Assembly: GCA_005789685.1 (NCBI GenBank)
Contig: SXXD01000099.1
Location: 1 to 10,611 of the forward strand
DNA from: Burkholderiales bacterium
GTDB taxonomy: Bacteria; Pseudomonadota; Gammaproteobacteria; Burkholderiales; Burkholderiaceae_C
Direction of reading: 5' to 3'
DNA: 10,611 bases
Part shown: one piece after another, positions 6,031 to 9,122 of the stretch
Layout of the letters: the number at the start of each line of letters is the position of its first letter
Position numbering within the stretch: the stretch's first letter is position 1
Notes under the pieces: model-generated
The model's input: only the letters and a program-made list of their open reading frames with translations
Database searches by the model: none
What the model was told of the DNA's origin: nothing
Program-made: the position numbers and the translations under genes

Positions 6031-7665
6031 TTAAGAAATAAGCTTGATTGTGCCGGGCACGATTTTGGCGCCAAAATTTTCAACCATGGCTTGCACCATG
6101 GGATCAGAATGAATCAATTCCTCAGCCGCTTTTTGCTTTTCAGCCAATTCAGCGGCATTGCGCTGTGCAGGAGAATCGGTCACTTTGCCAATTTCAACCA
6201 CCAGCTTGACGGCATACCCTGCGCTGTTCAATGCGGCTTGTAAACGCTCGCGCGCAGTGCCTTGATTTAAGGATTCGCTGTCAATTCTCAAATGCCATTG
6301 ATCGGTATCGCGTGCAATCAATTGCGATTGCAAGGCCAACTCACGTACCAAGGCCGTTACAGCTTCAGAAGCGACCAATTGACGAACTGTTTGAGTCCAA
6401 AAATGACCCTCCTCTGTGGCGACCAACACTTTCGGCGATGTTCTTTCAGTCGGTTCACTGGCTTGACGGACGGGTAAATTTTTAACTTGAATTGGCGCTG
6501 TCGCTAAAGTTTTTTTTTGAGCCGCAGGCGCCTGCACCTGTTGAACTTCTTGAGCTTGATGAGCCTTGGGCTTGAAAGCCAGTAGCCTCAGCAAGACCAT
6601 GGTCAGCGCAGCGTATTCATCTGGCGCCAAGCCCAATTCTGTGCGGCCGTGCAAACACAGGCTGTAGAGCAACTGCGTTTCATCGGCGGGCATGGCCTCG
6701 GACAAACGCAACAATTCTTGGTGATCCGGGTCCTCTGATTCAGAGGTGGCGCTGGGGACTGCTTGCAGTACGGCCATGCGCTGCAACACCATGGACATGT
6801 CTTCCAAGGCAGAAGCAGCAGACAGCCCATTCAGTCGCAGGCCTTCAGAAATTGCAACTACCGCGGCACCATCGCTCCGAGCAAGCGCGTCAATAAGGCC
6901 CATGACATGGCTGCGATCGACACTGCCCAACATCAAACGAGTTGTGGCTTCTTGTAATTGACCGCTGCCAAAAGCAATGGCTTGATCGGCCAGGCTCAGT
7001 GCATCGCGCATGGACCCCCTGGCGGCTCGGGCCAACAACTTCAGTGCCATGGGCTCAGCGGGCAAATTCTCTTGCGCCAAGACCTTCGTGAGGTGTTCAA
7101 ACACTGTTTCTGGCGCCATGGGTCGCAAGTTAAATTGCAAGCACCGAGACAAAACAGTGACGGGAACTTTTTGGGGATCGGTGGTGGCCAATACAAACTT
7201 CAAATACTCAGGCGGCTCTTCAAGCGTTTTCAACATGGCATTGAAGGCCGTGTTGGTCAACATGTGAACCTCGTCAATCATGAACACCTTGAAGCGCCCC
7301 TGAACCGGTTTGTAAACCGCCTGTTCAAGCAAGCTTTGAACTTCATCGACACCTCGATTGGAGGCGGCATCAAGCTCCGTGTAATCTACAAATCGACCTG
7401 AATCAATGTCCCGACAGGCCTGGCAAACACCACAAGGCTCAGCAGTAATGCCCCCATGTCCGTCTGTGCCCTGGCAATTGAGTGATTTGGCCAAAATGCG
7501 AGATACCGTTGTCTTGCCCACGCCCCTGGTGCCGGTGAACAAATAGGCATGGTGCAACCTTTGTTGCACAAGGGCATTGGTCAGGGCTTGAACAACGTGC
7601 TCTTGCCCCACCATTTCAGTGAAGTTTCGAGGGCGGTATTTGCGAGCCAGAACGAGATAAGACAT
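6031..7665 (-). CDS. dnaX: DNA polymerase III subunits tau/gamma (clamp loader ATPase)
   Basis: DnaX is the motor of the beta-clamp loader; the full-length tau also links the polymerase core and DnaB helicase. The 544-residue protein starts with the family sequence [14 protein letters not shown]. It has Walker A GTRGVGKT (45-52), a zinc module with C64, C78, C81 and C84, Walker B with D131-E132 in IDEVHML, sensor 1 region LATTDPQK, and the SRC arginine finger (173-175). The AAA+ lid and collar (domains II-III) run to about 370. A low-complexity Gln/Ala/Lys linker (about 371-410) precedes the C-terminal tau domain (about 420-544), which is shorter than E. coli's. A run of nine A in the linker (Q383-K384-K385) is a probable slippage site, listed separately. 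ATG at 7665 has no clear SD. It heads the dnaX-ybaB-recR operon. Confidence 0.97.
6510..6519 (-). promoter_or_regulatory. A9 slippage / -1 frameshift site in dnaX
   Basis: On the coding strand dnaX reads C followed by nine A and then C (codons CAA AAA AAA ACT, residues 383-386). This contains the -1 heptamer A-AAA-AAA in phase. Shifting -1 (or adding one A) adds nine residues and stops at TAA (6484..6482), giving a 394-residue protein. Losing one A stops at TAG (6506..6504) after one residue, giving 386 residues. Both products keep the ATPase and collar domains and drop the tau part. Thermus dnaX uses an A9 run for transcriptional slippage; E. coli uses A-AAA-AAG for ribosomal frameshifting. 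Use here is inferred. Confidence 0.6.
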
Positions 7666-7699: not shown

Positions 7700-7793
7700 G
7701 ACGGGCCTTCCCGCATGGTAAAGCGGCCAACCGAGTCAGGTGGGGAACCAAGCAGCTCTAACTGCAGAGTCAGTGCCGGGGTCAAGGCTCGTC
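7700..7793 (+). ncRNA. ffs: 4.5S signal recognition particle RNA (small bacterial type)
   Basis: The RNA partners Ffh in co-translational targeting of membrane proteins to FtsY and SecYEG. The conserved helix 8 core is present: GTCAGGT (7735-7741), then GG-GGAA-CC with the GGAA tetraloop, then AAGCAGC (7750-7756). In E. coli the tetraloop is closed by CC/GG; here it is GG/CC, so the pairing is kept by a double compensated change. The ends pair too: GACGGGCCTT (7700-7709) with AAGGCTCGTC (7784-7793), 10 pairs with one G-U, then CCCG/CGGG inside. About 94 nt with no Alu domain fits the proteobacterial short form. The 5' end agrees with the -10 box upstream; the 3' end is set by pairing, and a T-rich stretch (7797-7806) lies just beyond. 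It is divergent from dnaX and overlaps the last 12 nt of the flavoprotein gene. Confidence 0.9.
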
Positions 7794-9122
7794 ACCTTTC
7801 ATTTTTGCGTGCAAGCTCTTTGCAGCTTTCACCCCTGTGGCCATGCAGGCCGTGAGCAAGTAACCACCTGTGGGCGCTTCCCAATCCAACATTTCCCCCG
7901 CACAAAATACCCCCGGCAATGCCTTGGTTTGCAGTCCTGCATCGAGGCCCTCCCACGTCACGCCCCCTGCGCTGCTGATGGCTTCATCGATGGGCCTAGG
8001 CTTTGTGAGCACCATGACCAAGCCTTTGATGGCCAAGGCCAGTTGCGCTGGATCTTGCAAAATCTGAGGCAACAACAATTCGTTCAACAGGGCCATCTTG
8101 ACGCCCTCAATGCCAAGTCTTCCTTTGAGGTGTGAAGACAAACTGCGCGAGCCCCGGGGATGTGAAACCTCATGGATGACTTTTTCCAAGGTCCAATCGG
8201 GCAATAAATCCAATTTAAATTCAGCCAGCCCTTGCGCTTGAATGGCCTTGCGTAAATCTGATGACGCGGCATAAATCAAACTGCCTTCCACCCCATAGGT
8301 GCTGGCCACAAATTCTCCCTGGCGCCTGATGACATGCCCTTGGGCATGAACCCACTCCATGGCGACTGACTTGAGAGGCTGACCCGCAAAACGCGCCAAG
8401 AAAAACGGCGTCCAACCCTGCCCCTCTCTACCGGCCACATGAAAACCGCAATTGGAGGGAAGCAGGGGGTTCACGGGCACGCCCACTTCAGTTAACCAAG
8501 GTGTCCAAGCACCGTCAGAGCCTAGGCGGGCCCAACTTCCCCCGCCAAGCGCCAAGACCACAGCTTGGGCATTGACTTTGCGCAACTCAAGCTCAGGCGA
8601 AGAGAGATGCCGCACTTCGAAACTTAATTCAGTGCATTTGCCTTTGACTTTGTCAGCGGGTATTGCTTGCAAACCTGTTAATCGATGGCGCATGTGAAAT
8701 TCAACGGGCTTGCCTGTTAGAGGATGGCGCAAACGATGTAACCACGCTCGCAGCAAGGGGGCTGCTTTCATTTCTTTGGGGAAAATACGTCCTGAGCTTC
8801 CAATGAATGTTTCAACTCCCAAATCCTGAGCCCAATCCCTCAATTGATCCGAGCCCCACTGACTCAGCAGGGGTTTCAGTTGAGCCGCATGGTCGTCATA
8901 GCGATATACAAATTGATTGAACGCCTCTGAGTGCGTGAGGTTCAGCCCCCCTCGCCCTGCCAACAAAAACTTTCGACCCACTGAAGGCATGGCATCAAAC
9001 AGATGCACAGACTGGCCCAAACTCGACAAAACCTGAGCCGCCATCAGGCCGGCAGGCCCGCCCCCAATGACCGCTACGGACAAGTCCAAGGGCTTTGAAG
9101 CGTGAGATGAAGGGACGTCCAT
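7782..9122 (-). CDS. BaiN/HI0933-family FAD-dependent oxidoreductase (TIGR03862-like)
   Basis: A 446-residue two-dinucleotide-fold flavoprotein of the HI0933/YhiN (BaiN) family, predicted cytosolic; the substrate is unknown for this branch. The FAD-binding start is VAVIGGGPAGLMAA (16-29) with D43 at the end of the second strand. The family signature VGRKFLLAGRGGLNLTHSE follows (48-66), then a GGGSWARLGSDG block and the C-terminal FAD-contact CAGEMLDWEAPTGGYLLT, which is typical of the TIGR03862 type. Start: ATG at 9122 is chosen because the longer frame begins with a TTG at 9179 whose bases form a TTGACA -35-like box; neither start has a clear SD. Its TGA (7784..7782) lies inside the 4.5S RNA gene. 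It is on the same strand as, and upstream of, dnaX, so readthrough could feed dnaX. Confidence 0.9.
   Translation of the reverse strand: MDVPSSHASKPLDLSVAVIGGGPAGLMAAQVLSSLGQSVHLFDAMPSVGRKFLLAGRGGLNLTHSEAFNQFVYRYDDHAAQLKPLLSQWGSDQLRDWAQDLGVETFIGSSGRIFPKEMKAAPLLRAWLHRLRHPLTGKPVEFHMRHRLTGLQAIPADKVKGKCTELSFEVRHLSSPELELRKVNAQAVVLALGGGSWARLGSDGAWTPWLTEVGVPVNPLLPSNCGFHVAGREGQGWTPFFLARFAGQPLKSVAMEWVHAQGHVIRRQGEFVASTYGVEGSLIYAASSDLRKAIQAQGLAEFKLDLLPDWTLEKVIHEVSHPRGSRSLSSHLKGRLGIEGVKMALLNELLLPQILQDPAQLALAIKGLVMVLTKPRPIDEAISSAGGVTWEGLDAGLQTKALPGVFCAGEMLDWEAPTGGYLLTACMATGVKAAKSLHAKMKGDEP

Follow-up and report, generated by a model that had tools for sequence, protein, structure and literature searches.

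The window analysed here, a stretch of 10,611 nucleotides, comes from a draft Limnohabitans assembly (Comamonadaceae; 1.81 Mb in 299 contigs, 73% complete). On its minus strand it carries a dnaX gene, which was identified from its open reading frame, from TIGR02397 (405.9 bits over the cut-off), from Pfam matches to both the clamp-loader and the tau domains, and from the phmmer similarity of the protein to the solved gamma/tau chains 1jr3 and 8giy. The features that concern us are the following.

6031..7665, minus strand: dnaX, DNA polymerase III subunit tau (and putative gamma), 544 amino acids
6538..6954, minus strand: clamp-loader domain III, Pfam DNA_pol3_gamma3, residues 238-376, ending shortly before the A9 run
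6524..6535, minus strand: palindrome GCAGGCGCCTGC upstream of the run, judged incidental
6510..6518, minus strand: A9 run, candidate slippage site, CAA AAA AAA ACT, codons 383-386
6504..6506, minus strand: TAG, first stop of the +1 frame, 1 codon past the run (CTT TAG)
6482..6484, minus strand: TAA, first stop of the -1 frame, 9 codons past the run (AAC TTT AGC GAC AGC GCC AAT TCA AGT TAA)
6061..6432, minus strand: tau domain V, Pfam DNA_pol3_tau_5, residues 412-535, polymerase alpha interaction

A small signal recognition particle RNA gene (RF00169, 56.5 bits) lies at 7700-7796 of the window on the plus strand, divergent from dnaX and 34 nt apart from it, and RF00169 is also found near dnaX at six loci from relatives (L160, L162, L165, L170, L174 and L252).

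The A9 run and its two stops

The coding strand at the site reads GCT CAA AAA AAA ACT TTA GCG. The nine As occupy 6518-6510, with the first A at nucleotide 1148 of the coding sequence, the second position of codon 383, and the run therefore starts between the end of domain III (residue 376) and the start of tau domain V (residue 412). The latter lies entirely 3' of the run and is absent from the predicted gamma. The full-length tau has 544 residues (59.4 kDa), while a message with one A added is predicted to give a product of 394 residues (43.0 kDa) and a message with one A lost a product of 386 residues (42.2 kDa). The original prediction, made from the sequence of the window, had placed an in-phase A9 at codons 383-386, between the clamp-loader core and the tau domains, with a -1 stop after nine codons and a +1 stop after one, and slip products of 386-394 residues ending past the collar; the sequence, the computed products and the Pfam boundaries all agree with it.

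Runs of this length are scarce in the source assembly, where plain A9 occurs on the two strands at five overlapping places, forming four runs including the one in dnaX, whereas Markov estimates based on the window predict some 82-167 occurrences. Long A/T runs seem to be avoided in this genome.

Conservation of the run

We searched 90 Limnohabitans genomes, six of which were unreadable at the linker: three gave no dnaX-level match (G035, G062 and G076), one was interrupted by a contig end (G067), one by a gap (G037), and one has a broken frame (G031), although its locus, L091, still holds one A9. In each of the 84 dnaX genes whose linker could be read, the run is exactly A9 and its codon phase is the same; two of these genomes (G009 and G010) are single-contig assemblies. 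The surroundings are far less constant. Mean pairwise identity is 53% over the 30 nt before the run and 47% over the 30 nt after it (600 sampled Limnohabitans pairs), and among lineages the spacing between the collar motif and A9 varies.

The same site extends well beyond the genus. In total, 313 dnaX loci were collected, 89 of them examined as the family sample from 120 genomes searched; leaving out three loci without an anchor (L091, L093 and L208) and 21 duplicate linkers gave 289, one of which, L086, is interrupted by Ns at the site. Non-redundant family dnaX genes with the site number 183, namely 179 with A9 and four with A10, the latter being three genes titled Comamonas and one from a Burkholderiales bacterium beside them. 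Phase 1 is kept in 183 of 183, and in every one the open frame continues for at least 35 codons past the run, L024 being cut at a scaffold gap. The codon preceding the lysine pair is GAA in 159 genes and CAA in 24, and the following codon always starts with A, so that at least nine contiguous As are kept, whereas the heptamer A_AAA_AAA needs only seven. For comparison, AAA makes up 51% (672/1315) of the other lysine codons in Limnohabitans dnaX and 35% (516/1461) in the others (179 rows).

Two records call for separate mention. Locus L104 (CALPYQ020000163.1), titled Singulisphaera sp. GP187, has a Limnohabitans-like dnaX with A9, and its label looks wrong. In Limnohabitans sp. Ww144 (JAHEBO010000006.1), an apparent linker duplication (L024/L169) was rejected as an assembly artefact, since a 100-base N gap separates the copies; an A9 linker stands on both sides of the gap and the reading frame breaks, so annotation would read a broken dnaX.

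Outside the family, we looked for the run up to 150 codons from the collar in the best-scoring 28 of 58 genomes from the order and 28 of 112 from the class. A9 was found in two and one of these, respectively, in a different codon phase or with a distant +1 stop, and A8 was found in two of each set; the counts do not include L264, whose A9 lies beyond that distance in the linker. The scattered A9 sites in other Burkholderiales and the wider class (L276 in G243, L319 in G331, L267 in G256 and L264 in G214) are possibly further independent gains, and two of the four are A9G sites containing A_AAA_AAG with a near -1 stop.

Conservation of the out-of-frame stops

Both out-of-frame stops fall within 10 codons of the run in 172 of the 183 A9/A10 genes, which are related sequences and not independent counts, and within 16 codons in 180, the remaining three (L111, L150 and L249) being without one of the two. 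For codon boundaries elsewhere in these linkers (10,980 places), both stops lie within 10 codons in 4.6% of cases, and synonymous resampling of the 18 codons following the run, with each gene's own codon usage, gives an expectation of 18%. When the family search is reduced to one row per genus, both stops are present in 41 of 42. The two frames contribute unequally to this excess: a -1 stop within 10 codons is seen in 180/183 genes (98%) against a synonymous expectation of 28%, and a +1 stop in 175/183 against 69%, so the near +1 stop is largely accounted for by the amino acids themselves.

There are 30 different pairs of stop distances among these genes, and thus the stops have been replaced over time yet not lost. 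A frequent form outside Limnohabitans is A9 followed by a CTCTGA-type sequence, with the +1 stop after one codon and the -1 stop after three to seven. The question that the original prediction had raised, namely whether the run and both stops are kept while the linker drifts, can thus be answered strongly in the affirmative.

Relatives with A_AAA_AAG

In E. coli, dnaX yields gamma by a ribosomal -1 shift on A_AAA_AAG. Seven family genes without A9 carry this heptamer in the zero frame: four titled Polaromonas, one titled Comamonadaceae bacterium that groups with them, L258, which also groups with them, and L252, which stands elsewhere. All seven have a -1 stop after 1-5 codons, and six of the seven have an SD-like word (GGGAG or AGGAG) 5-24 nt upstream. 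Their +1 stop comes after 39-62 codons in six cases and after 7 codons in L258. Thus, a near +1 stop (within 10 codons) accompanies 175/183 A9/A10 sites but 1/7 A_AAA_AAG sites (Fisher p 3e-7, relatedness ignored). By the same reading, the E. coli site is preceded by AGGGAG, and its first -1 and +1 stops come after one and 11 codons, respectively; in Neisseria these distances are five and 216 codons. In ribosomal-type sites it is thus mainly a single frame that is guarded, while A9 sites have both guarded, as slippage at transcription, which both adds and drops As, would require. RF00382 matched none of the seven A_AAA_AAG relatives (E up to 1), so their ribosomal reading rests on the heptamer, the SD-like word and the stop.

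A FastTree tree of the DnaX core (197 rows) joins the named Comamonadaceae in a 130-row clade with support 98. This clade holds 116 A9 rows, four A10, the seven A_AAA_AAG, one A8 (L194) and two rows without the site (L184 and L204); the tree's remaining 39 family rows showed no such site. Within the clade, the only rows with AAG in the lysine pair are the seven with the E. coli heptamer. The A8 gene (L194, from G154) has a near stop in the -1 frame only, with the -1 stop after three codons and the +1 stop after 35, and looks intermediate between the two kinds of site.

The Polaromonas clade falls inside the A9 rows both in the FastTree tree and in a more careful tree, where the forks that place it are weak (82/64 and 82/47). 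A tree in which the A9 rows form a single clade that excludes Polaromonas was not rejected by AU tests, either on the quick tree (p 0.83, the constrained tree being even better) or on the careful tree (p 0.34, with 11 rows left out and two added). Given the weak forks and these tests, either order of the two mechanisms is compatible with the trees. The exact stretch GAGTGCCGCCGAGCC precedes A_AAA_AAG in L252 (G118) and in the Polaromonas loci L160 and L162 and is found in no A9/A10 gene, while on the DnaX tree L252 stands away from Polaromonas on a long branch. Transfer could account for this sharing, as could an ancestral element or a long branch put in the wrong place.

Candidate stimulators near the run

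None of six SD-like words tested was found 5-24 nt upstream of the A9 in the window. Across the family such words precede 10 of 183 A9/A10 sites, compared with 388 of 5490 control places (7.1%), and so show no excess. Similarly, an RNA-structure stimulator 3' of the run was rejected, as folding there is barely stronger than that of mononucleotide shuffles (mean z of -0.32 for 40 A9/A10 genes sampled from the 183, and of -0.03 for the seven A_AAA_AAG genes). The palindrome GCAGGCGCCTGC was likewise rejected as a stimulator, being present upstream of the run in only 4/183 A9/A10 genes, all Limnohabitans; it is where the original prediction had seen it, except that it ends 5 nt before the first A and not 4. 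From the collar to the end of the window dnaX there is no zero-frame A_AAA_AAG, the site reading A_AAA_AAA_A, and RF00382 has no match at this locus (E up to 1), whereas E. coli matches it with 96.8 bits.

Discussion

We propose, with a probability of about 0.8, that the dnaX linker A9 serves programmed transcriptional slippage, through which both tau and gamma would be produced. RNA polymerase would add or drop As on the T9 template, generating a mixed pool of messages (A8, A10, A11 and so on). Messages with nine As, or nine plus or minus a multiple of three, would be translated into full-length tau, while the others would run into one of the two stops just past the run and yield a gamma of 386-394 residues, that is, the clamp-loader part without the C-terminal tau part that contacts polymerase alpha. 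The ribosome may contribute some -1 shift on the A_AAA_AAA within the run. This proposal draws on the run itself, the strict conservation of its length and phase, the close and enriched stops, its place between two domains, and the ribosomal-type sites of Polaromonas as a contrast. On this basis we infer slippage itself, its taking place during transcription and its efficiency, as well as a gamma that is stable and put to use. What favours the transcriptional route is the retention of a stop in each wrong frame and the lack of any excess of SD-like words, while the E. coli-type relatives keep the -1 stop and are mostly without a near +1 stop. In this respect, the comparative data lend support to the original prediction of a gamma form made possibly by transcript slippage.

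The main competitor, which we consider rather unlikely, is a ribosomal -1 frameshift in which transcription is faithful, tRNA-Lys slips on A_AAA_AAA and the -1 stop ends gamma. A_AAA_AAA does stand in the zero frame of every phase-1 A9 gene, a -1 stop is near in 180/183, and the A_AAA_AAG sites of the Polaromonas relatives, 6/7 with an SD-like word, indicate that such a route is usable in the family; moreover, a nine-A cassette of a magnesium chelatase gene is reported to give 40% frameshifting in E. coli (PMC3711429). A ribosomal shift would, however, not need a near +1 stop, which 175/183 A9/A10 genes nevertheless have, against 1/7 of the A_AAA_AAG relatives, and this stop lies 11 codons away in E. 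coli and 216 in Neisseria. Nor are SD-like words commoner at A9 than at control places (10/183 and 388/5490), and the two As beyond the heptamer are kept.

It is also conceivable that the peptide E/Q-K-K-T/S is what selection preserves, with no slippage at all and with the AAA codons and the stops incidental. Every A9 gene does have the lysine pair, as do the A_AAA_AAG genes, and the amino acids explain much of the near +1 stops (69% expected). Against this, 120 of the 130 clade rows keep nine or ten As, and AAG enters the pair only in the seven heptamer rows, although it makes up 49-65% of the lysine codons elsewhere in these genes; near -1 stops, at 98% versus 28% under synonymous resampling, point the same way and make this explanation very improbable. 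We give just as little credence to a homopolymer sequencing error, or to a phase-variable repeat whose slippage at replication would switch the dnaX frame. The window does come from a 73% complete draft, and homopolymers are error-prone; but A9 recurs in 84/84 readable Limnohabitans genomes, two of them single-contig, and in all 183 genes the run lies inside an open frame that continues for 35 codons or more.

If the A9 sites act at transcription, Polaromonas would use ribosomal frameshifting in place of transcriptional slippage. We lean towards the view that the family has kept gamma under strong selection while changing the means of making it, most genera using an invariant transcriptional A9 with stops in both frames, and Polaromonas and one further lineage a ribosomal site, mostly with an SD-like stimulator, in the same linker. 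If true, close relatives would here have exchanged, in nature, transcriptional recoding for translational or translational for transcriptional, and gamma production would be typical of a large lineage. The purpose of gamma is still debated, and the strict retention, over most of a family, of a candidate slip site guarded in two frames is comparative evidence that gamma matters in the Comamonadaceae. The family includes cultured genera, in which a synonymous change could remove the run and leave tau untouched. In addition, A9 and A_AAA_AAG, occupying one locus in different relatives, form a naturally matched pair for comparing transcriptional with ribosomal recoding.

According to the literature, most bacteria outside the enterobacteria and Thermus keep no dnaX frameshift signatures and may not make gamma (PMC3290774, 2012), and the role of gamma is unclear, with frameshift-made gamma seemingly limited to enterobacteria (PMC4456610, 2015). 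In the open-licence literature, outside of which most subscription papers fall, we found no paper on dnaX or slippage in Burkholderiales, Betaproteobacteria, Comamonas, Polaromonas, Limnohabitans, Acidovorax or Variovorax. On the mechanism itself, bacterial RNA polymerase is described as slipping in both directions on nine As or Ts, with multiple insertions predominating at the Thermus dnaX run (PMC6260861), and in E. coli A_AAA_AAA is described as shifting far less readily than A_AAA_AAG (PMC5009743).

The closest known system is the dnaX of Thermus, in which slippage on A9 produces gamma and near stops stand in both other frames; about half of what Thermus makes in this way remains full length (Larsen et al. 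2000, as described in PMC5009743 and PMC1088944). Like the T. thermophilus gene, as portrayed there, the window dnaX has a coding-strand A9 past the clamp-loader core, with tau in the zero frame and near stops in both others; unlike it, it belongs to a distant lineage, and its slippage is predicted, whereas that in Thermus has been demonstrated. A second comparison is with the two-ORF dnaX genes of Antonov et al. 2013 (PMC3711429), which also combine a poly-A slip site with two products; there, however, tau needs the change of frame and ten As are commonest, whereas here tau would be the unslipped product. With the E. coli element (RF00382) our site shares the gene, the linker region and the kind of product, but it has no A_AAA_AAG in the linker and no SD-like word, and it has a near stop in both frames; it is the Polaromonas relatives that resemble E. 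coli, with A_AAA_AAG, mostly an SD-like word, and a -1 stop 3-5 codons on. Taken together, the comparisons give good support to the view that this is a known kind of site, of the Thermus type, which here would be spread over most of a family and accompanied by an unexpected mix of two recoding mechanisms.
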